DNA of 64,000 nt from Chondrosia reniformis (Eukaryota > Porifera > Demospongiae > Chondrillida > Chondrillidae): positions 2,888,001 to 2,952,000 of the forward strand of contig OX359202.1 in the NCBI GenBank assembly GCA_947172415.1, written 5' to 3'. The position numbers and the translations under genes were made by a program. The notes below the pieces were generated by a model that was given only the letters and a program-made list of their open reading frames with translations, did no database searches and was not told where the DNA came from. Below are positions 1 to 22,489 of the stretch, in pieces (position 1 is the first letter of the stretch; each line of letters opens with the position of its first letter).

Positions 1-1
1 T

Positions 2-1338
2 ATTCCATTTGACATTGTTGTGCACCACACTCGTGAGTTGCACAAACACAGAATGAAAATACGCCACAAACCTCCAGAACCATTTCATCTGTTTGTGACA
101 GGTGGAGCAGGCACTGGAAAATCACATGTAATTAGGGCTATTAAAGAGCATATGGAACGTTCTATGTCAGGGAGTCAAGAGATGCATGCCTGTATGTTGA
201 TGGCACCAACCGGGGTTGCAGCCTTCAACATTGGAGGCCTCACAATCCATAGAGCATTGCGGCTTCAGGTGGAGCATGGCAGAACTGCTCATCAATTGCA
301 GCTGAATGCCCTAGCCCTGCATGACTTGCCAGGAATCTGTGGCAAGGAGTGCACACCATCATCATTGATGAAATCAGTATGGTGTCTTACCAGAAACTGA
401 AGTCAGTTCACAGTCGACTGTGTGAGATTTATGGCAATGATGAGATCTTTGGTGGCTTGAATGTCATTGCAGTGGGTGACTTGTACCAGCTATCTCCAGT
501 GAACGGTAGTTTTATATTCAGTCAAAAACCTGGACGCTCATCGGGGCGACTGGCTTCACACCTTTGGAGGGATTTCTTCAAGGTGATTGAACTGGAAGTG
601 AACATGCGTCAGCAGAATGATGCTTCATTCTCAGAGATACTTAATCGGATCAGGACGGGCGTGCACACCAATGAAGATGTGAAAGTTCTTCAAGCACGTT
701 TGGTTTCGGGTGGGACTGTGGATTTGCCGGCTTCCCCATTTGATACAGCTCTGACATTGTATCCTCGTACAGTAGATGTTGATGGGCACAATGAAATGCA
801 GATAAAAAGTCTAGCAAAGAGCAGTCAAATCTATAGTATTGATGCCGAGCATGCAATATTAGAGAGTCGAGGGCAAATATTTAATACAATGAGGTTCCCA
901 AACGTCTCATTCCACAAGATAATAAAGACTGTGCTGCACTGCCCCGTATAGTGAGGCTAGCAGTTGGTGCTAGATTAATGTTGGGACGAAACATTAACTG
1001 TAGTGATGGCTTGGTGAATGGTGCCAGAAGAACAATTGTAGGCTTCACGTGGTCAAGAAATGCAAGGCATCAGAGTATGCCTGGTGAATTACCCACAGAG
1101 GTATATTTGAGATTCTTAGATCCCAATGTGGGGAAATTGTCATAGGTACCATGTTGTCTCGGAGGAACAGGATGTTGTACCAATTCAGCCTATTCCTGCA
1201 CGTTTCTATGGAAAGGAAGTTACACTCCTGCAGAGAACACAGATTCCCTTGATTCTGTGCTGGGCAGCAACTATTCACAAGTTGCCAGGATTGTCTCTTG
1301 ATGCAGCAGTCATGGATTTAGGGAAGGATGTATTTTAA
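2..1338 (+). pseudogene. PIF1-like Helitron helicase fragment
   Basis: In Helitrons the PIF1/RecD-type SF1 helicase unwinds DNA during rolling-circle transposition. Seen here: Walker A GGAGTGKS (about 101-124), Walker B IIIDEISM (about 358-381), the GDLYQLSPVNG motif (about 475-507), RLAVGARLMLG (about 955-985) and the motif near TIHK (about 1270). Reading moves through several frames. Two extra bases near 330 shift the frame in this copy only, and a TAG follows KLS at 1143. Motif VI (VALSRVR) is gone because about 290 bp present in the mirror copy (about 12445-12735) are missing near 1350. The protein cannot be functional. Confidence 0.85.
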
Positions 1339-1396
1339 CCTGGAATGGCCTAGTAACACTTAAGGGACACATGGCAAGGAGTATACATCGGAACCA

Positions 1397-2364
1397 TTGG
1401 TGGTTGGCAGTCAGTCTGCTCATTCAGACATCCCAATTACTTATGTTAAAACACTGGTGTTGTCACTGAAAACAACACTTGAAGCTTTAGTGACTAGTAA
1501 CACTTTGAATAGTGAATCAATAGTAAGGTGGTCAAAGTGTCATCACAGTGAATTAGAGACTATTCTTAAAGTGGTCAATCGTCCTTCCCGGGCAACTTTC
1601 AGTAATATGCATCATCAAGTGGATGTTGTAGTAAAAGACAAAGTCTTTCCAGCTTTTACGTCACAGTACATGCCAGTTTGCACTAAAGAAGGTGGAAATT
1701 GTATGTATCATATGCTATCTTTGGCCCTTTGTGGAACAGAGCAGTACATGTGCCACTTTAGATTGTTGACCGCTTAAAGCCTCATTATGCATCAACAACA
1801 TATGCTAGAAGTCATTCAGCCAACTGCTAGGATACTTCTACCGTTGCAGAAACGAGATACTGCTTCAGTTGCTAAAGCAGCAGAAGTACAGTGGCTGGAA
1901 CTACTTCGCAGTTCGATCACTGACAAGTCGTGGGAAACCAATTTCATCTGTATGCACTGGCAATGATTTTGGAGAGGTCCATTTGGTTGTATGGTGTGAT
2001 GTACAGCAGATGCCTTCAAGATGAAGGAAAGCAGCTCCAACCAATTAAGCAGGATGTAACACCTACTGAATTGCAAGATCTGTTTGAAATGAGAGACAAG
2101 AGGTTGAATAACAGCATTTGCTATCGCTCCGATGCAGTCCCAGAAGAACATGTTCCCCTTTTAGGATTTCTGGATTCCTCTCATTTCACTGCCATTCTTC
2201 CAATGGTTTGTGCAAAATGTTCCTTAGGGTTTGCTCCATTCACCACCTTCATGTCACAGTGGGCTCCTGAAGAGTATACACAAATGTGCCAACTACCATC
2301 ATCGGTTGCAGTGTTTGTGTATCATGGCAAGAGAATGGTAGAATACGGTAACTGCAAAGGCTGA
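1397..2364 (+). pseudogene. OTU-like cysteine protease domain of Helitron-1
   Basis: OTU proteases are deubiquitinase-type cysteine proteases. Some animal Helitrons (Helentron/Helitron2 kin) carry one C-terminal to the helicase. The Cys loop is KEGGNCMYHML, with the presumed nucleophile Cys codon at 1700-1702. The C-terminal His segment is LDSSHFTAILPM, near 2170-2205. An in-frame TAA at 1775-1777 separates the halves and is shared with the mirror copy at 12029-12031, so it predates the duplication. A further shift lies near 1930. The usual D of DGNC is replaced by G. Assignment rests on the paired Cys and His motifs and on their place after the helicase. Confidence 0.7.
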
Positions 2365-3314
2365 CGTGGTGATGTCAAGTTATTTAGAATTTAGCATTTG
2401 AGGCTACTTTCAACTCACTGCAGTATTTTGAAGTTTACGTATAATGTATTTTCTAAGTGTTTGTAAATTTTCTACATCAATTATTTATTTTGACAATAAG
2501 TCACACTCTACAGCAATACAGGGTGTTAGTATGAGTTCATATGTACTTTGTAATTTTGAATGTTTTCTCTGATGTGTGTTTGGCAGTGTCACAGTTATTG
2601 TCCTCTTTTGTGCTTTACTAAGAAGCAAGGATGCATGGAGCAGGCAATTTAAAAGCTTTCTGGTAAGTCAACAGTTTCAATTTCTTTAATTGTATACCTC
2701 ATTTGGCTTTCACTTACAAAATTCATTGCAAATTTCTAATTGTTCTCACATCATTGCAGGTCACTCCTTACCTTCACAACTAGAGAGAAAAAATATTATA
2801 GAAGAAGATACATGTTTTGAATTACTATGAACACATAACTTAGACCTGCATCGGGGAAACATGAGGAGTGAGCAAGCATTTCATTAGCAAGTGTAACAAG
2901 TAAGTGTACATATAATATGATTGCTAATTAACTCATGCACACTACTGCGAAGTGCTGTTAATATGTAAGTGTACTCTTTTCCTTCAGGTACCCAAATATT
3001 CCTTCCAACAAATCAATGCATTTCTGGGAAGCACCGGATAAACATGTTTGGAACCAAAGAAAGAAACCATACCCATACCATATCTGTCATATCTAATTTA
3101 TTGCACTATTAACTTACAAGTCATTATAGTGCATACTTCAGTGTTCGTGCAAAACACATGCTTGATAGTACCAAGAGCTAATACTCTTCCCTCACACTCT
3201 TTTTTCTGTTTCTAATGTACTTATTAATAGATAATTGATCATAGAAGTGTTTAATAGAATATACCAGTAGGATGAACATGATTGGTAATAATAATGCCAC
3301 AGCGACTGAAGGGA
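2365..3314 (+). other. Helitron-1 3' non-coding tail, copy A
   Basis: No coding signal. It is the mirror of 10006-11460 less the MITE at 10066-10549. The tail ends in the stem sequence GCCACAGCGACTGAA (about 3295-3310). At 3253 the site TATTAAACACT is the unfilled version of the piggyBac target that is occupied at 10062. Confidence 0.75.
3285..3314 (+). repeat. 30-bp direct repeat, left copy
   Basis: Identical 30 bp, beginning GTAATAATAATGCC and ending ACTGAAGGGA, occur here and at 9976-10005, exactly outside the satellite-cored element 3315-9975. They may be a long target duplication or a remnant of palindromic Helitron ends. Confidence 0.8.
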
Positions 3315-3317
3315 GCC

Positions 3318-3379
3318 AAGTAGTCCAAGTTCATTCGGGGGGCGGTAGCCCCACGAGTTTTTTTACTCGAACTACTTGT
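3318..3379 (+). repeat. U palindrome 1
   Basis: A unit of about 60 bp with arms AAGTAGT..AGTT and ACTCGAACTACTT, around an inner GC-rich stem GGGGCGGTAGCCCC. It would fold into a hairpin with a nested GC stem. Other copies are at 3514, 9721, 9916 and 47165. Confidence 0.75.
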
Positions 3380-3513
3380 TTATGCAACTAGCACATATAA
3401 CTACAAAATACTACTAGTTTATAACTATTTCATGTAACTAATACGTAAAATTATTACATATAACGAGTACATACAATAGTACATACAATGAGTACATCCA
3501 ACTAGAAAAAAAC

Positions 3514-3572
3514 AAGTATTTCGAGTTTAAAAAGTCGTGGGGCTGCGCCCCAAAATTAACTCAAACTACTCT
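3514..3572 (-). repeat. U palindrome 2
   Basis: Inverted copy of the U unit with the inner stem GGGGCTGCGCCCC. It joins directly to the terminal module at 3573. Confidence 0.75.
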
Positions 3573-3775
3573 GCCGCTTCGTTGGGATCTAATATATATT
3601 TTCGTAATATTAACGATTGAGGACGCTTAAATGTCCTGAACTTTATAAATAACGATGGAAAAGTTTCGTAAACTAAAGCTTCCTGAACGCCCCCATTTTT
3701 AAAAACGATGTATTAACGTATAAAATAAGTGTAATAATAGTTGTGCATGAAACGTATTATGTATTGCTTGTAATA
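3573..3775 (-). repeat. Terminal module M, left (inner end lost)
   Basis: Unique sequence inverted relative to 9520-9720. It carries landmarks CCGCTTCGTTGGG, GAGGACGCTTAAATG and ACGTATAAAATAAG. It lacks the GGGGCTGCC hairpin cap found on complete modules and passes straight into satellite. Confidence 0.75.
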
Positions 3776-6700
3776 GTTGTATGGGTTAGTTGTTTGTACT
3801 AGTTGTATGAACTAGTTCTATGTGCTAAATGTATGTACTAGTGGAAATCACTATTTATAAGTACTAGTTATAGGTAATAGTTATAGGTACTAGTTGTAGA
3901 TACTATTTGTACATACTATTTGTATATTCTAGTTGTATGTAAAAATAGTATATACTGTTTGTATGTATAAGTTGTATGCACTAGTTGGATGTACTAGTTA
4001 TACGTATTGGTTGAATGTTCTGTTTGTATGTACTAGTTTATGTACTAGTTATATTTGTATGTTCTAGTTATATGTTCTACTTGTGTGTACAAGTTGTATG
4101 TATTAGTTATGTATTAGGGGTTTGTAGTATTTATATGTACTAGTTATATGTGTATATATACTAACTGTATGTAAAATTTGTATGTACTAGATGTATGTTC
4201 TAGTTGTTTGTACCAGTTGCATGTACCAGTTGTATTTACTAGTTGTATGTTCTATTTGTATTTACAAGTTATATGTGTATGTTCTAGTTATCCTTACTAG
4301 TTCTTTTGTACAAGTTGTATCAATGAGTTTTATGTACTAGTTGTACGTACTAGTTGTATATTCTAGTTGTATCTACTAGTTGTGTGTATTGGTTGTATGT
4401 ACTAGTTGTATGTACTAGTTGTATCTACTAGTTGTATCTACTAGTTATATGTACTAGTTGTATGTACTGGTTGTATGCACTATTTATGTGTACTGGTTTT
4501 ATGTACAAGTTGTTTGTACTAGTTATGTGTTCGTTGTATGTAGTATCTATATGTACTAGTTATATGTGTAAGTACTAGTTAAATATACTAGGTGTATGTA
4601 AAATTTGTGCGTACTAGATGTATGTACTAGTTGTATGTACCAGTTGTCTGTACTAGTTGTATGTACCAGTTGCATGTACTAGTTGTATGTATTAGTTGTT
4701 TGTATTATTTTTATGTACAAGTTATATGTGTATGTTCTATTTATCCTTATTAGTTGTATGTACAAGTTGTAGGTACGACTTGTCTGTACTAGTTTTATGA
4801 ACTAGTTATATGTACTAGTTGTATGTACTAGTGGTAATCACTAGTTATAGGTACTAGTTATAGGTACCAGTTGTAGGTACTAGTTGTACATACTATTTGA
4901 ATATTCTAGTTGTATGTACAAGTAATGTGTACTGGTTGTATGTACTAGTTATATGTACTAGTTGCATATATTAGTTATGTACTAGTTGTATGGACTAGTT
5001 TAATGTACCGTTTGCATGTACTGTTGGTATGTACTAGTCGTATGTACTAGTTGTAGGTTTCTAGTGGTAATCAATAGTTATAGGTACTAGTTATATGTAC
5101 TATTTGTATGTACTAGTTGTACGTACTACTTGTATATTCTAGTTGTATGAACTAGAAATATGTATTAGTTGTATATACTAGTTTTATGTACTAGTTGCAT
5201 ATACTAGTTATGTACTAGTTGTATGGACTAGTTGTACGTACTCGTTGCATGTACTGGTTGAATGTACTAGTTGTATGTTCTGGTTAAATGTACTCTTTAT
5301 ATGTACTAGTTGTAGGTACAAGTTGTATGTATTAGTTGTACGTAATGGTTGAATGTACTGTTTGTATGTACTAGTGGTAATCACTAGTCATAAGAACTAG
5401 TTATATGTACTAGTTGTATGTACTAGTTGAACATACTATATAGTTATAAATTCTACTTGTATGTACTTGTATTATGTACTTGTTGTATGTACTAACTTTA
5501 TGTACTAGTTGAATGTCCTAGTTTTATTTACTAGTTGCATATACTAGTTATGTACTAGTTGTATGGACTAATTGTATGTACTGGTTGCATGTACTGATTG
5601 AATGTACTAGTTGTATGAACTGGTTGTATGTACTATTTATATGTACTTTTCGTATGTACTAGTTATATGTAGTTTTTATATGGACTAGTAATATGTACTA
5701 TTTATATGTACTAGTTATATGTGTATGTTCTAGTTATATATACTTGTTGTATGTACCAGTTGTATGTACTAGTTGTAAGTACTAGTTGTATGTTATATAT
5801 ATATGTACAAGTTATATGCGCATATTTTAGTTATCCTTAGTAGGTCTATGTACAAGTTGTATGTACGAGTTGTATGTACGCGTTTTTGTACTAGTTGTAT
5901 GACCTAGTTATATGTACTAGTTGAATGTACTAGTTGAATGTACTAATGGTAATCACTAGTTATAGTTACTAGTTATATGTTCTAGTTGCATTTACTAGTT
6001 ATGTACTAATTGTATGTACTAGTTGTATGTACTGGTTGTATGTACTGGTTGTATGTACTGGTTGTATGCAGTAGTTGTATGTACTAGTTGTATGAACTAG
6101 TTGTATGTATTAGTTCCATGTAGTAGCCGTATGTAGTAGGTGTATGTACTAGTTGTATGAACTACTTATATATATGAGTTTTATGAATTTGTTATATGTA
6201 CTAGTTATTGGTACTACTTGTATATGCTAGGTTTGTATTCGAGTTGTATGTACTGGTTGTATGTAGTAGTTGTGTGCACCAGTTGAATGTCTACGTTCTA
6301 GTTAAATGTACTAGCTGTATGTACTAGTTGTATGTACTAGTTGTACGTACTGGTTGTATGAATTAGTTATAGGTATTAGTTCTAGGTACTATTTATATGT
6401 ACTAGTTGTATGTACTATATATATGTACAAGTTATATGTGTATGTTCTAGTTATCCTTACTAGTGCTATGTAGAAGGTTTATGTTCGACTTGTATGTACT
6501 AGTTGTATGAACTTATTATATGCCCTAGTTGTGTGTACTAGTATTATGTACTAGTGGTAATCACTAGTTATGACTACCAGTTATATTCATTAGTTGTATG
6601 TACTAGTTGTACGTACTAGTAATATGTACTAGTTGCATGTACTAGATATATGTACTAACTGTATGCACTAGGTATTTGTACTAATTGTTTGTACTCGTGG

Positions 6701-9433
6701 TGTGGACTAGTTGTATGTACTGGTTGTATATACAAGTTTTATGTACTTGGTTTATGCACTATTTATATGTACTAGTTGTATGTACTAGTTGTATGTACTA
6801 TTTATATGTACTAGCTATATATGAATGTTCTAGTTATATGTACTAGTTGTATGTACAAGTTGTATGTACTAGTTGTTTGTTCTACTTTTATGTACTGGTA
6901 GAATGTACTGTTTATATGTACTAGTCATATGTGTAATGTCTAGTTATATGTACATGTTACTAGTTGTATATACTAGTTGTACGTTCTAGTACTAGTTATG
7001 TTTATTAGTTGGAAGTACTAGTTGTAGGTACTTGTTTTATGTACTAGTTGTACGTTCCAGTCATAGATATGTTTATTAGTTGGAAATACTAGTTGTATAT
7101 ATTAATAGAAGTTATATTTACCAGTTGTAGGAACTAGTTTTATGTTCTAGCTGTATGTACTAGTTGTATGTACTACTTGTATGAACTAGTTGTAGGTACT
7201 AGTTGTTTGTACTAGGTGTATTTACTAGTTGTATGTATTCGCTACAAGTTGTATGTACTAGTTTTTGTATGTACTAGTAGTAGTTATATTTGCTTGTTGT
7301 AGGTGCAAGTTTTATATATTAGTTGTATATACTAGTTTTATGTTCTAGTTTTATGTATTAGTTGTATCTACTTTTTTATTAATTAGTTGTAGATACTATT
7401 GTATGTATTAGGTATATGCACTAGTTGTATGTACTCATTACTAATTGTATGTACTAAGCTTATATACTAGTTGTATGTATTCGTTACTAGTTGTATGTGC
7501 TAGTTGCACATACTAGTACTAGTTATATTTTCTAGTAGTAGGAACCACTTGTATGTATTAGTTATATGTGAATGTTTTAGTTATGTGTACTAATGGAATA
7601 AGGATTTCTTCTAACTGCGTCGAACTTATCTTTGTAAAGGTTCATCTTTCGACTTTTAGAGTGTCTAGAGACGCAGACGCTCTAAAAGTCGAAAGATGAA
7701 CCTTTACAAAGATAATTATATGTACTAGTTGTATGTACAAGTTGTATGTACTAGTTGTATGTACTACTTTTATGTACTGGTAGAATGTCCTATTTAAATG
7801 TACTAGTCATATGTGTATGTTCCAGTTATATGTTCTAGTAATATGTACAAGTTGTATGTGCTAGTTTTATGTACTAGTTGTATGTACACGTTACTAGTTG
7901 TATGTACTAGTTGTACGTTCTAGTACTAGTTATGTTTATTAGTTGAAAGTACTAGTTGTGTGTAATTGTTGCTTGTACTAGATGTAGAAACTAGTTGCTA
8001 GCTTTATTTACTAGTTGTATGTACTAATACAAGATATATTTAAAAGTTGTAGGAACTAGTTTTATGTTCTAGCTGTATGTACTAGTTGTATGCACTACTT
8101 GTATGAACTAGTTGTAGGTACTAGTTGTGTGTGCTAGGTGTATTTACTAGTTGTATGTATTCGCTACTAATTGTATGTACTAGTTTTTTGTGTTTACTAG
8201 TAGTAGTTATATTTACTTGTTGTAGGTACAAAGTTTACGTATAACTTGTATATTCTAGTTTTGTGTTCTAGTTTTATGTATTAGTTGTATGTATTGGTTT
8301 ATTAATTAGTTGTAGGTACTAGTTGTATGTATTAGGTATATGCACTAGTTATATGTACTCATTACTAGTTGTAGGTACTAATTGCATGTACTAGTACTAG
8401 TTATATTTCCTAATAGTAAGAACTACTTGTATGTATTAGTTGTATGTTCTAGTTGTTGGACCTAGTTACTAGTTCTTTGTACTAGTTGTATGTACTTGTT
8501 TTATGTACTAGTTGTATGTACTAGTACTAGTTATCTTTACTAGTTGTATGTGCAAGTTTTATGTACTAGTAGCATGTACTACTTGTAGTGCTAGTTGTAT
8601 GAACTAGTTGTATGTACTAGTTGTTTGTAATAGTTGTATGTACCAGTTGTATATACTAGTTGTATGTACCAGTTGCATGTACTATATAGTTGTGTTTATT
8701 AGTTGTATGTACTATTCATACGTACAAGTTATATGTGTACGTTCCAGTTATCCTTACTAGTTCTATGTACAAGTTTTATTCAAGAGTTGTATGTATTAGT
8801 TGTATGAACAAGTAAATGTACTAGTTACATGTAAAAGTTGAATGTACTAGTTGTATGTACTAGTTGTATTTACTAGTTGTATGAACTAGTTTTATGTACT
8901 AGTTGTATTTACTAGTTGTATGTACTAGTTGTATATACTAGTTGTTTGTACCAGTAGCATGTACTAGTTGTATGCATTAGTTTTATGTACTATATATGTG
9001 TACAAGTTATATGTGTATGTTCTAGTTATCCTTCCTAGTTCTATGGACAAGTTGTATGTACGACTTCTATGTACTAGTTGTATGAACTTATATATGTACT
9101 AGTTGTATGTATTAGTATTATGCACTAGTTATAAATACCAGTTGTATGTACTAGTTGAATGCACTAGTTGTAAGTAATAGTTATATGTACTAGTGGTATG
9201 TACTAGTTTTATGTACTATATAGTTGCATGTGCTAGTTGCATTTACTAGTTAAATGTACTAGCTATACGTACTAGTAATATGTAATAGTTGCATGTACTA
9301 GATATATGTACTAGCTGTATGCACTAGTTATTTGTACTAGTTGTATGTACTAGTTTTATGTACTGGTTGTATGTACTAGTTGTAATCTTTAGTGATAGGT
9401 ATTAGTGATATGTAGTAGTTGTATGTACAAGTT
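3776..9433 (+). repeat. 13-bp satellite array (TAGTTGTATGTAC), core
   Basis: Hundreds of imperfect 13-bp units, mostly TAGTTGTATGTAC with ATATG, TTATG and similar variants, all in one orientation. Because 13 is not a multiple of 3, any apparent ORF is a satellite artefact. There is no gene. A perfect hairpin is embedded at 7626-7715. Confidence 0.95.
7626..7715. repeat. Perfect 36-bp inverted repeat (hairpin)
   Basis: Arms 7626-7661 and 7680-7715 (outer bases TTATCTTTGTAA, inner ACTTTTAGAG) are exact reverse complements around an 18-bp spacer. The sequence is unrelated to the satellite around it, so it is an inserted palindrome, perhaps a tiny MITE. About 25 bp of other non-satellite sequence adjoin on the left. 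Confidence 0.85.
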
Positions 9434-9720
9434 AGGGGCTGCTGCAGGCAGCCCCTTATATTGTTTTCATTTGCCGATTAGGTTGTACGGCTTCATGTTA
9501 GAAGTTCATGTTCATTAAAGATATTTATATATATACTACGTTTCATACAAAACTATTATAACACTTATTTTATACGTTAATACATCGTTTTTAAAAATGG
9601 CGGCGTTCAGGAAGCTTTAGTTTACGAAGCTTTTCCATCGTTATTTATAAAGTTCAGGACATTTAAGCGTCCTCAATCGTTAGCATTACGAATGTATATA
9701 TTAAATCCCAACGAAGCGGC
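9434..9720 (+). repeat. Terminal module M, right (complete)
   Basis: Starts with the hairpin cap GGGGCTGCTGCAGGCAGCCCC-like stem next to the satellite and ends at CCAACGAAGCGGC. Homologous modules are at 21969-22262, 38453-38725 (inverted) and 46855-47164. Confidence 0.85.
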
Positions 9721-9782
9721 AGATTAATTTGAGTTAATTCGGGGGGCACAGCCCCACAACTTTTTAAACCCGAAATACTTGT
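9721..9782 (+). repeat. U palindrome 3
   Basis: Completes an M-U unit of 349 bp (9434-9782) that has T on both flanks (GTT before, TTT after), as in the 46855-47226 unit. Confidence 0.7.
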
Positions 9783-9915
9783 TTTTTTTAGTTGGATGTA
9801 CTCATTGTATGTACTAGTGTATGTTCTCGTTATATGTACTAATTGTATGTATTAGTTATATGAACTAGTTATAAACTAGTAGTATTTTGTAGTTATATGT
9901 GCTAGTTGCATAAAC
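9783..9915 (+). repeat. Short satellite between U units
   Basis: Degenerate 13-bp satellite that is the inverted counterpart of 3381-3512, showing that the inverted repeat extends through it. Confidence 0.8.
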
Positions 9916-9975
9916 AAGTAGTTCGAGTTAAAAAATTCATGGGGCTACCGCCCCCAGAATTAACTCAAACTACTT
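9916..9975 (-). repeat. U palindrome 4
   Basis: Outermost unit at the right end, inverse of U1, with the inner stem GGGGCTACCGCCCCC. Confidence 0.75.
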
Positions 9976-10005
9976 GTAATAATAATGCCACAGCGACTGA
10001 AGGGA
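9976..10005 (+). repeat. 30-bp direct repeat, right copy
   Basis: Identical to 3285-3314. With the following TTCAGTCGCTGTGGC it forms a near-perfect palindrome (9978-10030), the original meeting point of the two mirrored Helitron-1 3' ends. Confidence 0.8.
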
Positions 10006-10065
10006 TTCAGTCGCTGTGGCATTATTATTACCAATCATGTTCATCCTACTGGTATACTCTATTAA

Positions 10066-10549
10066 CCCTTTAATGACCGCAGACGATATACATCGTCCTG
10101 ATAATTATATGCAGCCGATAACCGTTGATGATATACATCGTCATAGATAGGCGGTAGGCTTTCCCGGCAAATTATTAGCATATGCGCGGCCAAAGCAAAC
10201 TCTAATAGGTGTTAATTGGTCGTCAGACAGTTACACTTTACGATTAGTGCACACTGGTTGCAGGAACCTTCCCTCCGTGGCGAAAAAACTTCGAATTAAC
10301 CATATACGTACCGTGTGAGTGAAAAGAACTGACCAGGCTCTGAATGCGACCGCATAGGGTTAGGGTTAGGTTTAGTGCCTGGTCCGTTCTCTTCACTTGA
10401 TTTGAAAGGCTAAACTTGACGAGAATCCACTTCCTCAGTCGTAAAAACAACCTTACCTTACACGTGGCACTTACGTACATCATGTGGCCTTCGAAAAAGT
10501 CAGTCATAAGGTATAGGGCCGCCCACGCAATAAGTTGGCGCGGAAAGGG
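10066..10549. mobile_element. piggyBac-like MITE, 484 bp
   Basis: Flanked by TTAA at 10062-10065 and 10550-10553. The ends CCCTTT and AAAGGG are inverted. The mirror Helitron copy at 3253 shows the empty site with one TTAA. TTAA duplication and CCCTTT-type ends are hallmarks of piggyBac. There is no transposase, so it is non-autonomous. Internal motif GACGATATACATCGTC occurs twice near the left end. A second family member is at 39405-40165. Confidence 0.88.
10315..10397. repeat. Hairpin with telomere-like loop inside the MITE
   Basis: Arms near 10315-10338 and 10377-10397 (GAACTGACCAGGC and GCCTGGTCCGTTC) pair. The loop holds TAGGGTTAGGGTTAGG at 10355-10370, the animal telomere repeat. The sister MITE has the same at about 39694-39712. 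Confidence 0.75.
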
Positions 10550-10553
10550 TTAA

Positions 10554-11470
10554 ACACTCCTATGATCAATTATCTATTAATAAGTACATTAGAAACAGAA
10601 AAAAGAGTGTTAGGGAAGAGTATTAGCTCTTGGTACTATCAAGCATGTGTTTTGCAGGAACACTGAAGTATGCACTATAATGACTTGTAAGTTAATAGTG
10701 CAATAAATTAGATATGACAGATATGGTATGGGTATGGTTTCTTTCTTTTGTTCCAAACATGTTTATCCAGTGCTTCTCAGAAATGCATTGATTTGTTGGA
10801 AGGAATATTTGGGTACCTGAAGGAAAAGAGTACACTTACATATTAACAGCACTTCACAGTAGTGTGCATGAGTTAATTAGCTATCATATTATATGTACAC
10901 TTACTTGTTACACTTGCTAATGAAATGCTTGCTCCCACCTCATATTTCCCCAATGCAGGTCTAAGTTATGCGTTCATAGTGATTCAAAACATGTATCTTC
11001 TTCTACAATATTTTTTTCTCTCTAGTTGTGAAGATAAGGAGTGACCTGCAATGATGTGAGAACAATTAGAAATTTGCAATGAATTTTGTAAGTGAAAGCC
11101 AAATGAGGTATACAATTAAAGAAATTGAAACTGTTGACTTACCAGAAAGCTTTTAAATTGCCTGCTCCATGCATCCTTGCTTCTTAGTAAAGCACAAAAG
11201 AGGACAATAACTGTGACACTGCCAAACACACATCAGAGAAAATATTCAAAATTACAAAGTACATATGAACTCATACTAACACCCTGTATTGCTGTAGAGT
11301 GTGACTTATTGTCAAAATACATAATTGATATAGAAAATTTACAAACACTTAGAAAATACATTATACGTAAACTTCAAAATACTGCAGTGAGTTGAAAGTA
11401 GCCTCAAATGCTAAATTCTAAATAACTTGACATCACCACGTCAGCCTTTGCAGTCACCCTATTCTACCAT
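10554..11470 (-). other. Helitron-1 3' non-coding tail, copy B
   Basis: Mirror of about 2350-3255. No coding potential that holds in both copies. A 72-aa frame at 11177-11395 on the other strand has no match in pattern or context and is ignored. Confidence 0.7.
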
Positions 11471-12496
11471 TCACTTGCCATGATACACAAACACTGCAAC
11501 CGATGATGGTAGTTGGCACATTTGTGTATACTCTTCAGGAGCCCACTGTGACATGAAGGTGGTGAATGGAGCAAACCCTAAGGAACATTTTGCACACACC
11601 ATTGGAAGAATGGCAGTGAAATGAGAGGAATCCAGAAATCCTAAAAGGGGAACATGTTCTTCTGGGACTGCATTGGAGCGATAGCAAATGCTGTTATTCA
11701 ACCTCTTGTCTCTCATTTCAAACAGATCTTGCAATTCAGTAGGTGTTACCTCCTGCTTAATTGGTTGGAGCTGCTTTCCTTCATCTTGAAGGCATCTGCT
11801 GTACATCACACCATACAACCAAATGGACCTCTCCAAAATCATTGCCAGTGCATACAGATGAAATTGTTTTCCCCATGACTTGTCAGTGATCGAACTGCGA
11901 AGTAGTTCCAGCCACTGTACTTCTGCTGCTTTAGCAACTGAAGCAGTATCTCGTTTCTGCAACGGTAGAAGTATCCTAGCAGTTGGCTGAATGACGTTTA
12001 GCATATGTTGTGGATGCATAATGAGGCTTTAAGCGGTCAACAATCTAAAGTGGCACATGTACTGCTCTGTTCCACAAAGGGCCAAAGATAGCATATGATA
12101 CATACAATTTCCACCTTCTTTAGTGCAAACTGGCATGTACTGTGACGTAAAAGCTGGAAAGACTTTGTCTTTTACTACAACATCCACTTGATGATGCATA
12201 TCACTGAAAGTTTCCCGGGAAGGACGATTGACCACTTTAAGAATAGTCTCTAATTCACTGTGATGACATTTTGACCACCTTACTATTGACTCACTATTCA
12301 AAGTGTTACTAGTCACTAAAGCTTCAAGTGTTGTTTTCAGTGACAACACCAGTGTTTCAACATAAGTAATTGGGATGTCTGGATGAGCAGACTGACTGCC
12401 AACCACCAATGGTTCCGATGTATACTCCTTGCCATGTGTCCCTTTATTCGCAATCTTAACATAAGATTGTGACATGCACTTGTCATTGTGTACCAA
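11471..12496 (-). pseudogene. OTU-like protease domain of Helitron-1, copy B
   Basis: The N-terminal part ends with KEGGNCMYHMLSLALCG (presumed catalytic Cys codon 12104-12106). An in-frame TAA at 12029-12031 follows, then a 182-aa continuation in the same frame containing FHLYALAMILERSIWLYG, which fits the OTU central strands, and LDSSHFTAILPM with the presumed catalytic His. The same TAA is in copy A. The domain sits C-terminal to PIF1, as in other OTU-bearing Helitrons. A role in protecting transposase or partners from ubiquitin turnover is only a guess. Confidence 0.72.
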
Positions 12497-12615
12497 AGCA
12501 CTACTACCCTTTACTGCAGCACTTGATTTCTCCTCATTTTGACTACAAATCTGGACAAATGACCTGATATTAGCTCCTCTTTTTCTTATTCCTCACCACT
12601 ATGAGCAGATTCTTG

Positions 12616-13118
12616 TCATAGCCTTGCCATTTCCTCATGGACTCTCTTGTTTGCTGTCATCTTCTTTGGCTGAAAGTTCAGGAGGGCCACTCCATTCAGT
12701 GTGCGCACACGACTAAGAGCTACATAGGCCATTCCAGGTTCAAATAAATCCTTCCCTAAATCCATGACTGCTGCATCAAGAGACAATCCTTGCACCTTGT
12801 GAATAGTTGCTGCCCAGCAAAGAATCAAGGTAATCTGTGTTCTCTGCAGGAGTGTAACTTCCTTTCCATAGAAACATGCAGGAATAGGCTGAATTGGTAC
12901 AACATCCTGTTCCTCCGAGACAACATGGTACCTTTGACAATTTCCCCACATTGGGATCTAAGAATCTCAAATATACCTCTGTGGGTAATTCACCAGGCAT
13001 ACTCTGATGCCTTGCATTTCTTGACCACTTGAAGCCTACAAATGTTCCTCTGGCACCATTCACCAAGCCATCACTACAGTAAATGTTTCGTCCCAACATT
13101 AATCTAGCACCAACTGCT
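12616..13118 (-). pseudogene. PIF1-like helicase, C-terminal half, copy B
   Basis: Contains RLAVGARLMLGRN and SDGLVNGARGTFVGF, then, after a one-base shift near GKLS/GNCQ (about 12945), ATIHKVQGLSLDAAVMDLG and AYVALSRVRTLNGV, that is SF1 motifs V and VI with the arginine finger. Copy A has lost motif VI. The shift is shared by both copies. Confidence 0.85.
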
Positions 13119-13122
13119 AGCC

Positions 13123-14517
13123 TCAGTATACGGGGCAGTGCAACACAGTCTTTATTATCTTGTGGAATGAGACATTCGGGAACCTCATTGTATTAAATAT
13201 TTGCCCTCGATTATCTAATATTGCATGCTCGGCATCAATACTATAGATTTGACTGCTCTTTGCTAGACTTTTTATCTGCATTTCAATGTGCCCATCAACA
13301 TCTACTGTACGAGGATACAATGTCAGAGCTGTATCAAATGGGGAAGCCGGCAAATCCACAGTCCCACCCGAAACCAAACGTGTTTGAAGAACTTTCACAT
13401 CTTCATTGGTGTGCACGCCCGTCCTGATCCGATTAAGTATGTCTGAGAATGAAGCATCATTCTGCTGACGCATGTTCACTTCCAGTTCAATCACCTTGAA
13501 GAAATCCCTCCAAAGGTGTGAAGCCAGTCGCCCCGATGAGCGTCCAGGTTTTTGACTGAATATAAAACTACCGTTCACTGGAGATAGCTGGTACAAGTCA
13601 CCCACTGCAATGACATTCAAGCCACCAAAGATCTCATCATTGCCATAAATCTCACAGAGTCGACTGTGAACTGACTTCAGTATCTGGTAAGACACCATAC
13701 TGATTTCATCAATGATGATGGTGTGCACTCCTTGCCACAGATTCCTCAAGTCATGCAGGGCTAGGGCATTCAGCTGCAATTGATGAGCAGTTCTGCCATG
13801 CTCCACATGAAGCCGCAATGCTCTATGGATTGTGAGGCCTCCAATGTTGAAGGCTGCAACCCCGGTTGGTGCCATCAACATACAGGCATGCATCCCTTGA
13901 CTCCCTGACATAGAACGTTCCATATGCTCTTTAATAGCCCTAATTACATGTGATTTTCCAGTGCCTGCTCCACCTGTCACAAACAGATGAAATGGTTCTG
14001 GAGGTTTGTGGCGTATTTTCATTCTGTGTTTGTGCAACTCACGAGTGTGGTGCACAACAATGTCAAATGGAATACGCTGCTTTTTATTCAAACTTGCAAT
14101 GGGTTGCCTAAATTCCCTATCCATAAGGGAGTGTCTACTTATAGCTCCAATGTCGTCATCATTGTCATTTAGGAACATATGTTCTTCATCTATTGCACTC
14201 AGATTGTCATCATCAAGGCATGCTGGGTCCATGAAATGCTCTGGGTTCATCAACCCTCCTTCAGCCTCAATAAAGGGTTGTGCAGCATCCTCCCTTTGAG
14301 CCTGCTGTGCCATTGGGGCAACAACATCTTGGTAGGCATCGTCTTTCAAGGCTTGTAATTGCACAACAGCCTTCTGCACTTCATCTGCAAAGGCATGATT
14401 GTTAGCATTCAAACAACCATTTCTCCTTCTCTTACAATGAAAGCCTGCATTGCGAGAAGAGTGACCTTTCAACAGATAATCAAGTTCCTTCCTCCAAGGG
14501 ATGTATAGTAGCAGCAA
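13123..14517 (-). pseudogene. PIF1-like helicase, N-terminal half, copy B (464 aa)
   Basis: Longest helicase frame of Helitron-1. An acidic linker (IEAEGGLMNPEHFMDPACLD) precedes the helicase. Then come QRIPFDIVVHH, Walker A GGAGTGKSHV (near residue 180), APTGVAAFNIGG, Walker B IIIDEISMVSY and GDLYQLSPVNG. The frame is lost near 13190: the helicase continuation NEVPECLIP-QDNKD-LPRILRLAVGA reads in another frame, and the same defect is seen in copy A. The region corresponds to the C-terminal half of a typical RepHel protein. Confidence 0.88.
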
Positions 14518-14520
14518 ACT

Positions 14521-15096
14521 CTAGTAATAGTCATCACCATGACTTTCTACTGTCTGTACTGGGATTTGAAGACAGGCTTGCTTCCTTCTCAGACGAACCC
14601 AACCCATGTCATTCTGCAACTGGTTACGAGGCTGTGCTGGTCCATTTCCAACTTTCCCAACACCTCGTGTATCTACATCATACCACACTGCAAAGTGAGC
14701 CAAGGTCATGCTTGCAAATTCTGGTGTGTCAGGTCTAGAGGCATATCTATCAAAGATACCAGGGGCAAAAATATCAGAGGAATCATCCTCCAATTCAAGC
14801 AATTCAGACCTACTCTTGAGTAACCGCGTTCTCTTTTCTGGTCTGGTAGTGTTAAGGAATACAACTTTTCTTGAATTTTCTTTCAGAGGCAAGTGACACA
14901 ATCGATATGCTGCCTCCTGGGCGCTCAACTCACGATGGGTCAGCATTGTGTTGCCAATCTTTGACAGATGCTTTCTTGTTGAAGCCTGAGGAGGCAAGCT
15001 TTCCAATGCATCTCGGATAGCTTTCCTGACCTCTTCACTTTCTGATTTACACATGTAGGAGCACACATATGCATCTGTGCCATATACGGATCCCAT
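14521..15096 (-). pseudogene. Rep domain C-terminus (Y2) of Helitron-1, copy B
   Basis: Begins at GSVYGTDAYVCSYMCK, the two-tyrosine motif of the Helitron rolling-circle nuclease (Y-V-C-S-Y). It continues through a threonine/serine-rich linker to DDYY. The HUH half is absent because the copy is truncated by satellite at 15096. Two nearby copies keep it (29217 and 32412). Confidence 0.85.
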
Positions 15097-15508: not shown

Positions 15509-16382
15509 CGCAGGTAGAACATGTGCAAATCGCACACAAAAAGGGGCGTTTTGTGGTTTTAAAAGAATTTGTTCATATAACGGTGTCTCACAATTAAATG
15601 CGTAGGATGGTCATGCGCAAGGTACGTGACTTGATCGATGATTCGTTTTGACGAATAAAAATTATCAAAGTGCAGACACGTTGTATCTCTTTTGTTTCTT
15701 GGACGATAAGTTTTACTTCGCAACGGATGGCTTAAACAACTCGCTAATCGATCAAATCTCCAAATCGACTGTCAAAAGAGGATACGTATTCAATGACGTC
15801 CTAATTACCTCGTGACCTCAGTGTGACTTTGTCGAGAAGAATGAATTTTTTACGAGTTTATTTCTTTCAAAAAGGCGGTCATGTAAACGATGGATTATTG
15901 CTCCCACAATTTAAGGACCACTTCACAAAAGGTAAAACTCACTTTTCACTGCGTCGGTTTGTGATAGCTTCTTCCATTACTGATATGTGCAGGTTTTTGT
16001 ATTTATTTCTTATCAAAAATCCAAAGAAAGCTGCACATCCCGGGAATGAAATGGTATTTCAAAAGCCGACTTGGTGAAAATTTAGATATTGACGTTAGCA
16101 ATCTTTTAAGACCATTTTTGTACTTTTTAACTGTGATCTTCATGACCGCCTTTATAGTCGAAGTGCTTTTCGTACGCCCAAATGAATCTGTCTTTTCTAT
16201 ATCAATTAATAAAATACGAAGAAAAAAATAAGCCAGATCATTAGTTATTTAGTAAAATATTCCATGAGATGTTTTCTTTTATCAGAAATCTAAAAGAAAG
16301 GGAAAACATACAACTTAATTTAGATCTTTGTTTTTGACGGCCATTTTGTTTTCGGCCGGAAAATGCACATGTCCTACCTGCG
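15509..16382. mobile_element. TA-flanked element with 19-bp inverted ends, 874 bp
   Basis: The ends CGCAGGTAGAACATGTGCA and its inverse (one mismatch) lie between TA dinucleotides at 15507-15508 and 16383-16384, inside satellite. The TA duplication suggests the Tc1/mariner superfamily. Reading frames inside (84 and 61 aa on the plus strand, 15823-16231) show no DDE motif and no recognised domain. It is therefore called non-autonomous or of unknown origin. Confidence 0.72.
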
Positions 16383-16384
16383 TA

Positions 16385-19300
16385 AGTACTTGTTGTATGT
16401 TTTAGTTGTATGTACCAGTTGTAAATATTACTTAAATGTATTAGTTGAATATACTAGTTGTATGTACTTGTTCTATGTACAAGTTACTAGTTGTATGTAC
16501 TAGATTTACGTTCTAGTACTAGTTATGTTTATTAGTTGGAAGTATTAGTTGTATGTACTAGCTGTAAGTACTAGATGTAGGAACTAGTTACTAGTTCTAT
16601 TTACTAGTTGTATGTACTAATACCAGTTATATTTATCAGTTGTAGAACTAGTTTTATATTCTAGCTCTATCTACTAGTTGTATGTACTACTTGTATGAAC
16701 TAGTTGTAGGTACTAGTTGTATGAACTAGGTGTATTTACTGGTTGTATGCCCTAGTTGTATGCACTAGTTGTATATACAGTTTAAATGGACTAGTGATAT
16801 TTGTATGCTGTGGTTATATGTTCTAGTTGTATGTACAGGTTATATGTACTAGTTAAATGTAGTAAATTAATGTACTAGTTGTATGTACTAGTTGTGATCA
16901 CTAGTTATAGGTAATAGATATATGTACTAGTAGTATGAACCAGTTGTACACACTAGTTGTATATTCTAGTTGTATGTACTAGTAATATGTACTGGTTGTA
17001 TGTACTAGTTTTATGTACTAGTTGTATGCACTAGCTATCCACTAGTTGTAGGTTCTAGTACTAGTTATACAAGGTTCTAGGAAGGTTCGAGTTGTGTGTA
17101 CTAGTTGTTTGTTCTAGTTATATGAACTAGTTGTATGTACTACTTGTGTGTACTAATTTAATGTACTAGTTGTATGTACTAGTTGTATGTACTAATTGTA
17201 TGAATTAGTACTCTATTTTATTTACTATTTGTGTGTAGTAGTTATGTATCAGTTGTATGTACTAGTTTAATGTACTAGTTGTAAATACTAGTCGTGTGTA
17301 CCAGTTGAATGTACTACTTGTATTGTACTTGTTGTATTTTCTAGTACTATATATTCAAGATTCTAGGAACGTACGACTTGTATGTACTAGTAATATGTAC
17401 TAGTTTTATGTACTAGTTGTAGAAGTAGTTGTATGTACTAGTTGTATGTACTAGTTATATGTTCTATATAGTCTTACCCACTAGTTCTATGTACTAGTTG
17501 TAGCACTAGTATTATATGTTAGTCGTATCTAGTAGTGGTATTTACTAATTGTATTTACAATTTATATGTACTAGTTATATATGTATTTACTAGGCATATG
17601 TATTAGTTGTTTGTACTAGTTATGTGAACTAGCTGCATGTACTAGCTGTATGTACTAGTTGTAGGTTCTAGTACTATATAGCTCTACATGGTACTAGGTT
17701 GGTACTTGCTGCATGTATTAGTTGTTGGAACTAGTTCTAAGTACTAATTCTATTCACTAGTTGTATGTACTAGTTGTATGATCTAGTACTATATAGTTAT
17801 ATATACTAGTTGTATGTGCTAGATGTATGTACTACTTGTATGTATTAGTTTTATGTACAATTTGTATATACTAGTTGTATATCCTAGTTGTATGTACAAG
17901 TTGTAAATACTAGACATGTGTAGTAGTTGTATGTACTACTTGTATGTACTAGTTGTATGTCCTAGTTGTATGTACTAGTTACTAGTTGTATGTACTAGTT
18001 GTATATTCTAGTTGTAGGGACTAGTCATATGTACTAGTTATGTTTTAGTTGTATGTACTAGTTGTGTGGACTTTGTGCAGGTATTAGTTGTATGTACTAG
18101 TTGTATATACTAATTACTAGTTGTATGACCTAGTTGTGTGGACTAGTTGTATGTACCAGTTGTATGTACAGGTTGTATGTACTAGTTGTTTGTACTAGTG
18201 CTATGTACTAGTTGTAGTACTAGTTGTATCTACTCTTTATTTGTACTAGTGGTATGTACCTATTGTATGTACTAGTTGTATGTACAAGTTGTATGTACTA
18301 GTTGTATTTACTAATTACTAGTTGTATGACCTAGTTGTGTGGACTAGTTGTATGTACCAGTTGTATGTACAGGTTGTATGTACTAGTTGTTTGTACTAGT
18401 GCTATGTACTAGTTGTAGTACTAGTTGTATCTACTCTTTATTTGTACTAGTGGTATGTACCTATTGTATGTACTAGTTGTATGTACAAGTTGTATGTACT
18501 AGTTGTATTTACTAATTACTAATTGTTGTTCTAGTTGTATGTACTAGTTGTAGTCCTAGTTGTATGTACTAGTGGTCTATACTAATTTTATGTACTAGCT
18601 GTATGACTAGTTGTATGTACTAATTTTATGTAATAATTTTAAGAACTAGTTATATGTACTAGTTGTATGTACCAGTTGTATGTACTAGTTGTATGTACTA
18701 ATTGTATGTACTAGTTATAAGTGCTAGTTGTATATACACGTTACTAGATGTATGTACTAAACTAACGTTCTAGAACTAGTTATGTTTATTAGTTGGAAGT
18801 ACTAATGTTATGTAGTAGTTGTATGTACTAGATCTAGTTATTTTTCCTAGTTGTAGGAAGGACTTGTATGTACTAGTTGTATGAACTAGATGCAGAAATT
18901 AGTTACTAGTTGTATTTACTTCTTGTATATACTAATACTAGTGATATTTACCAGTTATAGGAACTACTTTTACGTTCTAGCTGTATGAACTAGTTGTATG
19001 TCCTATTTGTATGAACTAGTTGTAGGTACTAGTTGTATGTACTAGGTGTATTTACTAGTTGTATGAACTAGTTGTAGGTACTAGTTGCATTTACTAATTG
19101 TATATACTAGTTGTATGTATTCGCTACTAGCTTTAAATACTAGTTTTATGTTCTAGTTTAATGTATTAGCTGTACATACTAGTTATATTAATTAGTTGTA
19201 GGTACTAATTCTATGTATTAGGTATATGCACTAGTTGTATGTAGTCGTTACTCGTTGTATGTACTAGGTTTATGTATTAGTTGTATGTACTCGTTACTAG

Positions 19301-20070
19301 TTGTATTTACTATATAGTTGTGTGTACTAGTACTAGTTATATTTCATTGTTTTAGGAACTACTTGTGTGTACTCGTTGTACGTACTAGTTGTAGGACCTA
19401 GTTACTAGTTGTATGTACTAGTTCTGTGGACTAATTCTATGTACTAGTACCAGTTACATATACTAATTGTATGTGCTAGTTGTATGTACTAGTTGTAAGT
19501 ACTAGTTGTTTGTTTTAGTTGTATGCATAAGGTGTATGTACTAGTTGTATGTGCTAGTATAATTTACTAGTATTATATTCTATTTGTATGTATTAGTTAC
19601 TCGTTAAAAATTGTATCTACTTGTTCTAGGTACTAGTTCTAGTTATAATTTCTAGTTGTAGGTACTAGTTGTATGTACTAGTTGTATTTACTAGTTGTAT
19701 AAACTCTTTACTAGTTGTATTAACTAATTTTATGTACCATTAATAGTTATATTGACAAGTTGTAAGTACTAGTTGTATGTACTAATTCTATGCAATAGTT
19801 GTATGTACTAGTTTTATATACTAATTGTATGTACCAACTGTGTACTAGTTGCATGTACTAGTTTTATATACTAGGTTTATGTACTAGGTTTATGTACTAG
19901 TTGTTTGCACTAGTTGTATGTACTAGGTGTATGTACCAGTTGTTTGATCTAGTTGTATGTACTAGTTGCATGTACTAGTTGCATGTACTAGTTGTATGTC
20001 CTAATTGTAGGTGATAGTTATGTGTGTGTTCTAGTTATATGTGCTAGTTTTATGTACTAATTGTATGAAC
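16385..20070 (+). repeat. 13-bp satellite array
   Basis: Plus orientation, with local higher-order duplication (18111-18512). No gene. Confidence 0.93.
18111..18512 (+). repeat. Perfect 201-bp tandem duplication
   Basis: 18111-18311 and 18312-18512 read identical, both starting TAATTACTAGTTG. Surrounding units differ widely, so this is a recent unequal-exchange or slippage event. Confidence 0.85.
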
Positions 20071-20072
20071 TA

Positions 20073-20404
20073 CCGTAGTTCGGGAAATTTTCGTTGTTAA
20101 AATATTTTTAACAACGAATATTAACACGTTGTACAATCTACGTATATATGTAAACGCAACACAGCTGAGCGCGGCCAAAATGGCTCTACTGCGATACCTG
20201 CAGCGCAAGGACGGTTTACCGGACCCAAAGGGTTCACTTTCGTGAAAGCCGCGAACACAGAGATCCCTTTCGTAATCCTCTATTTCTCAACGTAATTACC
20301 TAACGTGTATAAATTTTCGTGGTAGCCCCCAGACCACGAAAATATTTTAACACGAAAATTTTTTCCACAAAAATTTCCGAACACGAAAATTTCCCGAACT
20401 ACGG
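20073..20404. mobile_element. MITE, 332 bp, TA target
   Basis: Inverted ends CCGTAGTTCGGGAAATTTTC (22 bp perfect) lie between TA at 20071-20072 and 20405-20406. Further ACGAAAATTT-type repeats lie just inside the right end. It has no coding capacity. Probably Tc1/mariner-like by target. Confidence 0.82.
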
Positions 20405-20406
20405 TA

Positions 20407-21968
20407 GTTCTTGGTATTAGCTATTTGTACTATTTGTACGTATTCGTAATATGTGCTAGTTGTATGTACTAGTTGTATGTACCAGTTTCATGTACTGGTT
20501 GTATGTATTATTTGCTTCTACTAGTTGTATGTACTAGTTAAATGTACTATTTATATGTACAAGTGATATGTGAATGTTGTAGTTATCTTTACTAGTTCTA
20601 TGTACAAGTTGTATGTACGACTTGTATGTACTAGTAGTAGGCACTAGTTATATGTACTAGTTGTATGTACTAGGTGTTAGTACTAGTTGTATGGACTAGT
20701 TGTATGAACTAATTACATGTACTACTTATATGTACTAGTTCTATGTAGTAGGTATATGGACTAGTTTTATGTAATAGTTAAATAATATACTAGTTGTAAG
20801 TACTACTTGTATACAATAGCTGTATGTACTGGTTGTATGTACTATTTCTATGAACTAGTTGTATGTATTAAGTGTATGTACTAGGTGTATGTACTAGTTT
20901 TTGGTACTAAGTGTATGTACAAGTTGTATTAACTAGATGTATGTACTACTTGTATGTACTAGTTGTATGTATTAGTTGTATGTCCCAGTTGTATGAACCA
21001 GTTGTATATACTAGTTCTATGTATATACTAACTGTATCTAGTGGGTGTATGTACTAGTTGTCCATACAAGTTCTAATTACAATTTTGACATTCTAGGTGT
21101 AGGAACTGGTTGTATGTACTAGTGTGTATACTAGTTATACGTACTAATTGTATGTGCTAGCTTTATAAGATAGTTATGTACTAGTAGTGTGTTCTAGTTA
21201 TATGTACCAGTTGTATGTACTAGTTGTATGTATTAGTTGTATGTACTGTTTATATGTACAAGTTATATGTGTATGTCCTAGTTATCTGTACTAGTTTAAT
21301 GTACAAGTTGTAGGTAATAGTTATACGTACTAGTTGTATGAACTAGTTATATGTACTTGGTGTACGTATTTGTTGTATGTTTTTGTTGTAAACACTAGTC
21401 ATAATGAACCAGTTACATGTACTATTTGTATGCACTGGTTGTTTGTTCTAGACATATGTTCTGGTTGTATGGACTAGTGTATGTACTGGTTATACGTACT
21501 AGTTGTATGTACTAGTTGTATGTACTAGTTGTATGAACTAGTTATATGTACTACTTGTATGTACTAGTTGTAGGTACTAGTTGTAAATACCTGGTGTATA
21601 TTCTAGTTGTTTGTACTTCTAATATATACTGGCTCTATGTACTAGTTACATATACTAGTTGTCTGCCCTAGTTTTCTGTACTAGTTGCATATACTAGTTA
21701 TGTACTAGTTGTATCTACTAGTTGTATGTCCTAGTTGTGGTTGTATATACTATTTATATGTACAAGTTGTATGTACTAGTTTTATGTACTATTTATATAT
21801 ACTAGTTATATATACTATTTATATGCACTAGTTATATGTGTATGCTCTAGTTATATGTACTACTTGTATGTAGAAGTTGTATGTACTAGTTGTATTTACT
21901 ACTTGTGTGTGCTAGCTTTATGTACTAGTTGCATATACTAATTGTATGTACTAGTTGTAGGTATTACT
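20407..21968 (+). repeat. 13-bp satellite array
   Basis: From about 21245 onward it is the left end of the giant palindrome and mirrors 38726-39352. At about 20880-20960 it holds the unfilled form of the site occupied by the MITE at 39405 (GTATTAACTAGATG). Confidence 0.93.
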
Positions 21969-22262
21969 AGGGGCTGCCATAGGCAGCCTCCTATATTGTT
22001 TTCATAACGCAATTTATGTATGGCTTCGTGTTATGGATTTATATATATAATACGAATTAATATGCAACTATTATAACACTTATTTTATACGTCGTTATAT
22101 GTATAATACGTGTTCATACAAAACTATTGTAACACCTAATTTATACGTCAACACATCGTTTTTGCAAATGGCGGACTTCATGAAGCTGAAGCTTTTCTAT
22201 CATGTTCAGGACGCTTAAGCTTCCAAAATCGTTTGGAATACCAGTAGATAACCATATTGAAG
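21969..22262 (+). repeat. Terminal module M at the Helitron-1 5' side, copy C
   Basis: Hairpin cap GGGGCTGCCATAGGCAGCC, then TATATTGTTTTCAT and an internal duplication of the TATAATACG..CAACTATT segment, ending CCAACGAAGG. It merges without a gap into Helitron-1 5' sequence. The following GTCCAAGTACTTTCAGTT looks like a diverged start of the U unit. Confidence 0.8.
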
Positions 22263-22489
22263 TCCAACGAAGGGTCCAAGTACTTTCAGTTAGAAGCGCA
22301 ATGAAGAAAGACAAGTAAGTTTGGTCAATATCTATGAATCCTCTTTTGATTTAAGTAAATACTGTAATAATAGGCCTATGTCAGTCTAGAAAGACGTTCT
22401 AATGTCTACGATCTGTGTAACCTCTGTCAGTGCTAAGTTGTTTTTGTAATTCTACCTGTACAGCCCGTAGGACTGATTTTGTAAACATT

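Follow-up and report, generated by a model that had tools for sequence, protein, structure and literature searches.

A Helentron-armed palindrome around 13-bp satellite DNA in the sponge Chondrosia reniformis, probably formed by inverted duplication and copied between chromosomes

Two Helentron 3' parts face each other across 13-bp satellite DNA in the genome of Chondrosia reniformis, and the palindrome that they form probably arose by inverted duplication within the satellite; the HINE and the Helentron in its arms would be later insertions, and the block would then have been copied between chromosomes. Observed directly were the anatomy of the unit, the empty Helentron sites, the junctions common to several copies, the facing pairs at four places and the identities between arms. 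The window, that is, the whole stretch analysed, comprises 64,000 nucleotides (C14:2888001-2952000) of an assembly of 117.4 Mb in 15 contigs, 14 large ones and C15. COX1 lies on C15 and contains eight in-frame TGA codons, which read as W under code 4; its protein has a sponge-like look. PTEN-type genes gave no help with the species.

The unit under study spans positions 3312-9976 of the window. A one-way 13-bp satellite of 5.6 kb had been predicted at 3315-9975, enclosed by inverted modules of about 460 and 540 bp and by mirrored Helitron 3' ends, and these features were confirmed. The satellite spacer (3769-9433, + strand, about 5.7 kb) has period 13 with 436.8 copies and 67% matches by TRF, and a single direction throughout, as judged by polarity scan. 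The modules measure 453 bp (3312-3764) and 545 bp (9432-9976), and the 3' end at 3312-3380 (+) faces that at 9913-9976 (-) by profile matches. When the window was aligned against itself, 3251-3764 and 9529-10065 were inverted copies with 88.3% identity over 538 bp; this length and identity exclude a chance origin.

Each module is composed of a HINE and the 3' end of an autonomous Helentron, separated by about 130 bp of satellite. On the left, the 3' part of a Helentron copy, recognised by the 3'-end profile and by homology to the C3 copy and the right arm, occupies 1-3380 (+) and extends beyond the left edge of the window to about -2261. It is followed by about 130 bp of satellite in reverse polarity (3381-3510, -) and a truncated HINE (3511-3764, -), which matches model positions 98-353 of 353 by profile and whose inner edge is the inverted-duplication junction common to C14 and C3. 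On the right, a complete HINE (9432-9783, +; model positions 4-353) lies in satellite, followed by about 130 bp of satellite in forward polarity (9784-9912, +) and the 3' part of the right Helentron copy (9913-15096, -), with its 3' end at 9913-9976 and a helicase at 13123-14517; this copy abuts satellite and is cut at 15096. The spacer itself contains a hairpin, MITE-like repeat, recognised by reading (7600-7716, no strand assigned), pieces of which recur at loci L036 and L054. The predicted modules are inverted and of the right size, but in the left one the HINE is missing its first third, and the repeat exceeds the modules, extending well past them (e.g. 1362-3254 against 12444-10550, 98.0%). 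A foreign insert of 485 bp (10066-10549) is present in the right arm on C14 and absent from the left.

The rest of the window contains further satellite and inverted pairs. A satellite array occupies 16382-21963 (+; TRF and polarity scan), and a second palindrome (21322-39361, centre about 30523) consists of two Helentron 5' parts with satellite of opposite polarity at its outer ends. The same modules had been predicted to cap satellite at 21969, 38725 and 46855; instead, longer elements of autonomous type have their 5' ends at 21967 and 38727, and the HINE recognised by profile match at 46857-47227 (+) has same-polarity satellite on either side and caps nothing. A third inverted pair lies in satellite (41818-43642 against 51243-49374, 90.9%), and satellite polarity changes from forward to reverse at 49367-49446. 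Arrays in the window total 26.9 kb, slightly short of the 28 kb or so that had been estimated.

Alignment of the M module (M and U being the names given to the modules in the prediction) with other genome copies reduced it to an element of about 350 bp that also occurs without satellite. In the orientation in which its longer partner is coding, the element begins with TTTTAGGGGCTGCC..GGCAGCCCC and ends with GGCAGCCCC..GAGTTTTTAAACTC..ACTACTTGTT. Its subterminal inverted repeats are palindromic (GGGGCTGCC..GGCAGCCCC near the 5' end and GGCAGCCCC 28 nt from the 3' end), and the 3' palindrome GAGTTTTTAAACTC lies 12 nt from the 3' end. The target is T-rich: among 34 places, 31 of the 32 flanks readable on the 5' side have a T next to the element, as do 23 of 28 on the 3' side. 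Palindromic subterminal inverted repeats, a palindrome near the 3' end and a T-rich target are HINE features as described in PMC4067079, and because it has them the element is a HINE, a non-autonomous Helentron. Its 5' and 3' profiles also match both ends of the longer element on C3. The modules are of Helitron type, as predicted. No 13-bp array was present inside the HINE in the copies aligned.

The U module resolved into the 3' end of this longer element, which has HINE-type ends, and an adjoining 130 bp or so of satellite. The C3 copy is about 11.2 kb end to end (C3:2877151-2888344), and its decayed frames gave matches to STPRs, DUF6570, Helitron_like_N (E 7e-26) and OTU; the copies in the window matched PIF1 and Helitron_like_N. 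Rep and PIF1-type helicase domains (PF14214 and PF05970) are thus present, and no match to an endonuclease domain was seen in the Helentron frames scanned, all from decayed or partial copies. We name the element of about 11 kb Helentron; since the frames scanned gave no endonuclease domain, Helitron2 is a possible alternative identity. A search with the Helentron Rep returned 152 matches, and those listed all lie at 2.5-6.5 Mb of their contigs. Copies on C1 have long frames in the same search.

The original prediction held that the satellite spreads as cargo of a rolling-circle element, and the counts of modules and satellite, applied to the refuting conditions that came with it, speak against it in both directions. 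Satellite did not adjoin the HINE at 34 of 38 exact-match places. These places form sets of 34 and 4, with six hand-picked places (L109-L114) excluded from the count; satellite lay on at least one side at 3 of the 34 (L086, L096 and L098) and at 1 of the 4 (L026), and no satellite-like window was seen in 31 of the 34 HINE stretches of 901 bp, one end or neither being readable at 7 of the 34 places. Genome-wide, 201 HINE 5' ends were found at ≤3 mismatches. Among the 100 listed, 15 fell in satellite zones as first drawn and 19 in widened zones, which total 14.0 Mb or about 12% of the genome, indicating that HINEs are spread genome-wide.

Conversely, 21 stretches of satellite, each about 3 kb long, were sampled, and 16 of them had no module. 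A HINE or a Helentron end was found at the other five, by profile at L033, L037, L055 and L056 and by BLAST, which covered 14 of the 21 places, at L054. The 21 places were obtained by merging 30 loci; they include three pairs whose members overlap or almost abut even after merging, and one intronic array. Candidates for satellite-bearing mobile elements were also rejected individually: L041 is a minisatellite in an apparent intron of an ankyrin-type gene family, and the flanks of the short isolated arrays L048, L052 and L056 have no common ends.

Where HINEs are embedded in satellite, the flanking satellite had the same polarity on both sides in 12 of 12 cases examined; the copy at window position 9432, L009 and L012 represent a single insertion among these, and L110 and L112 were hand-picked. 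Satellite register across the 12 insertions showed scattered offsets and was not simply conserved, so that an empty site is demonstrated for the Helentron and not for the HINE. Taken as a tandem core or cargo of Helentron or HINE, spread by rolling circle as in oyster Cg_HINE, the satellite would account for the facing Helentron ends that enclose it at four places and for the few HINEs (L028, L086 and L098) with satellite on one side only, as capping predicts, and oyster Helentrons do carry arrays (PMC7492417). Against this stand the two counts above and the empty Helentron sites, which are plain satellite. Facing 3' ends, moreover, cannot form a single rolling-circle unit, which also counts against cargo. 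The cargo reading is not supported, and we regard it as very unlikely.

The order of insertion could be read from the empty sites. At L009 (C9) and L011 (C7), satellite continues past the shared HINE at the point where the Helentron 3' end sits elsewhere, the filled counterparts being both arms in the window and the copies on C3, C2 and C11. Satellite likewise continues at L012, L017 and L018, with 20 bp absent at the Helentron insertion spot. Genome-wide, C7, C9 and C10 have two empty copies apiece (two of these six at 3 mismatches), and there are ten filled Helentron junctions. Beyond the right C3 Helentron, satellite resumes the empty-site segment about 200 bp on, by eye. As regards a target-site duplication, the empty Helentron site is visible, but on C3 the flank at the 5' end of this insertion has undergone rearrangement. 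Because the empty sites are plain satellite, the satellite and HINE predate the Helentron, and the layers were probably formed with satellite as the oldest, HINE next, and then Helentron, palindrome and interchromosomal copying.

The unit of Helentron, satellite and Helentron recurs, as had been predicted. Facing filled junctions, 6.1-8.0 kb apart, occur on C14, C3, C2 (5.587/5.595 Mb) and C11 (3.117/3.124 Mb), and single filled junctions on C2 (5.740 Mb) and C8. The inner junction of C14 is matched by C3 alone (two genome matches within 3 mismatches), and the C14 spacer is 83.9% identical to that of C3 and 67-70% to two other arrays in the window. The C2 block mirrors that of C14, its spacer being reversed at the places sampled and its HINE-adjoining satellite 96.1% identical in mirror image; the C11 spacer is forward, in the C14 orientation. 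C2 and C11 have in common an insertion within the HINE (97.4% over 2.8 kb). Most simply, with inner junctions read on C3 and C14, a single ancestral block would have reached the four chromosomes by copying, along two lineages.

Identity between the arms over the 3'-terminal 4.2-4.6 kb is 99.91% on C3 and 98.13% on C14, and that between C3 and C14 is 97.47-97.85%. On C3, it is 99.8-100% toward the spacer and declines to 97-99% farther out. Because arms are closer within a block than between blocks and identity is highest inward, the arms appear homogenised by arm-to-arm conversion. Palindromes of the Y-chromosome type undergo arm-to-arm gene conversion, and in them too the two arms of one palindrome resemble each other more than they resemble those of another copy; here, the position is pericentromere-like, the arms are transposons and the spacer is satellite. 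The near identity of the C3 arms, in a highly repetitive region, might also be expected of an assembly artefact made by fold-back reads or misjoined repeats. The C14 arms, however, differ by 1.9%, and the insert in the right one is absent from the left; the asymmetric inner junction is common to C3 and C14, and C2 and C11 have another block variant in common. An artefact is accordingly the least probable of the explanations considered.

Movement of the tail-to-tail unit as a whole, as a composite, fold-back-like transposon with inverted ends of about 11 kb, was also weighed. The four units are on different contigs, and both orientations along the contig are represented; the left unit on C3 begins exactly at a Helentron 5' end adjoining satellite, as such an element might be expected to do. 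Both outer ends of the C14 block, on the other hand, are cut inside the Helentron, and because C14 has neither outer Helentron end, transposition of the whole block is disfavoured. The right outer flank on C3 resumes the empty-site satellite segment, as noted above, and related HINE-satellite segments are common to several contigs, and so were copied, even where there is no Helentron. We consider a composite transposon improbable. On C3, the satellite that precedes the 5' end of the left Helentron is forward, whereas that which follows its 3' end is reverse; no single insertion can give such chimeric flanks.

For the preferred reading, inverted duplication followed by copying between chromosomes, the following course may be proposed. 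A HINE, mobilised by Helentron enzymes, would have entered older satellite at a T-rich site, and the satellite-HINE segment would then have been copied onto other chromosomes. In one such copy, an autonomous, roughly 11-kb Helentron would have inserted 130 bp from the HINE. Inverted duplication would next have put a second copy of the 3' part of the Helentron, with the adjoining short satellite and a partial HINE, across about 5.7 kb of satellite, leaving two tail-to-tail Helentrons. This may have taken place by break repair, in which a broken Helentron invaded an oppositely oriented one; repair synthesis would have left through the Helentron 3' end and the 130-bp satellite into a partial HINE, and ended by a switch back to local satellite. 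Such a route would account for the chimeric flanks as well as for the truncation of the HINE on the left. The whole block would have spread among at least four chromosomes by ectopic recombination, and its arms would continue to convert each other.

Genome-wide, the satellite was searched with a three-unit pattern at ≤3 mismatches, with the same pattern read backwards as the control. The pattern gave 47,279 matches against 0 in the control, and since the window holds 139 for 26.9 kb of array, the genome may contain about 9 Mb of 13-bp satellite, by crude extrapolation from this one window. Among the matches listed, each of the 14 large contigs has a single internal satellite zone, with few matches on C12-C14, and one extra cluster is present on C3 (6.98-7.16 Mb). 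From their position, we infer that these zones are pericentromere-like. Neither a described 13-bp example of this kind nor a sponge centromere satellite was found in the open-licence literature.

Satellite symmetry was also seen on a larger scale than the four facing blocks of the genome and the three inverted pairs of the window. Satellite of + polarity tends to lie to the left of - satellite: among the exact matches listed, the mean probability was 0.784 over 11 contigs, a value reached in 0 of 2000 shuffles, and in a stricter set, from which the first satellite-pattern list was left out and in which neighbours were collapsed, it was 0.725 over 10 contigs (3 of 5000 shuffles); both tests use the matches listed, and the shuffles ignore kinship of neighbouring arrays. 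The tendency was seen on 8 of these 10 contigs (C1-C8, C10 and C11) and was contrary on C3 (0.40) and C10 (0.38). A fourth satellite pattern gave just 11 matches, too few to repeat the polarity test. A shared inversion site was seen for one inner junction, on C3 and C14 only. It is conceivable, though doubtful, that the pericentromeres are macro-dyads, with polarity mirrored in each zone and with converting, exchanged Helentron palindromes that seed and maintain the symmetry.

Macro-dyad symmetry of satellites has been described for Tribolium and is called exclusive to it so far in PMC13081366 (2026). As in that beetle system, the satellites here are pericentromere-like in position, with inverted subarrays and palindromes of kilobases to tens of kilobases. 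Tribolium satellites are 110-bp-derived, whereas those of the sponge have 13-bp units and Helentron arms, and, unlike in Tribolium, conserved inversion sites are seen here for two blocks only; a word search of the text available of PMC13081366 found no Helitron. Were the sponge zones macro-dyads, they would, going by the claim made in that paper, be the first such example beyond Tribolium, with rolling-circle elements as arms.

The elements themselves compare well with known ones. The HINE/DINE-1 elements and Helentrons described by Thomas et al. (2014; PMC4067079) are alike in their subterminal palindromes, 3' palindrome and T-rich target, and in a non-autonomous element that has the ends of a longer Rep/helicase element. 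The 3' subterminal repeat, however, lies 28 nt from the end here and 38-60 nt in the mite families, and, unlike the Helentrons described there, the present one has an OTU domain and no endonuclease domain in the frames scanned. Pacific oyster Cg_HINE (PMC7492417) is alike in that Helentron-family elements adjoin satellite DNA; its arrays are central repeats of the element, whereas the sponge HINE has no 13-bp core and its satellite was pre-existing. According to a review's summary of Xiong et al. (2016), plant Helitrons similarly gather near centromeres, as tandem arrays of truncated Helitrons, whereas single insertions in foreign satellite are seen here.

Helentrons and HINEs are known, as are large palindromes and insertion into satellite; what sets the present case apart is the combination, together with the sponge host. 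The story of a packaged satellite gives way to a sequence of events based on junctions, from satellite through HINE, Helentron and palindrome to interchromosomal copying. The small genome of this animal makes palindromes, conversion and interchromosomal exchange traceable from one junction to the next within pericentromere-like DNA, and the finding suggests that large satellite dyad symmetry, so far called exclusive to Tribolium in PMC13081366, may be wider.

The right Helentron arm (9913..15096, minus strand), which is the 3' part of a rolling-circle element and forms one side of the first palindrome, is interrupted by a repeat at 10066-10549 that includes a short stretch resembling GGGTTAGGG. 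This repeat is absent from the Helentron copy on contig C3, and a second copy (93.6% identity) lies at 39399-39852, beside the second palindrome. The inner arms of the latter (27048-34583) share 99.1% identity over 3.5 kb, whereas identity between the arms falls to about 93% in the outer part, a difference that again resembles arm-to-arm conversion.

Within the satellite, a MITE-like hairpin repeat was found at 7600-7716, and pieces of it were also seen near arrays elsewhere, at loci L036 and L054; it is one more element inserted in or beside the satellite. An open frame of 257 amino acids (40847-41620) is flanked by satellite arrays and gave no match in a Pfam search at E 0.01. At 58973-63999, another, different Helitron was identified, with matches to PIF1, OTU and DUF6570 and containing a 45-bp coding repeat.

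Near-perfect 13-bp arrays of differing lengths were also present at C3:6.96-7.16 Mb (loci L041, L116, L117, L118 and L006), apparently within an intron of an ankyrin-type gene that has been duplicated; in the paralogue at L006, only about 1.5 units are present. These arrays are possibly either the seed of the satellite or a transplant of it.

For most contigs tested, among the matches listed for the pericentromere-like satellite zones of C1-C11, plus-strand satellite tended to lie in the left part of the zone and minus-strand satellite in the right part; the same pattern, plus left and minus right, was recorded at about 49.4 kb in the window. Judging by this tendency in polarity, the zones look as if they were mirror-built.
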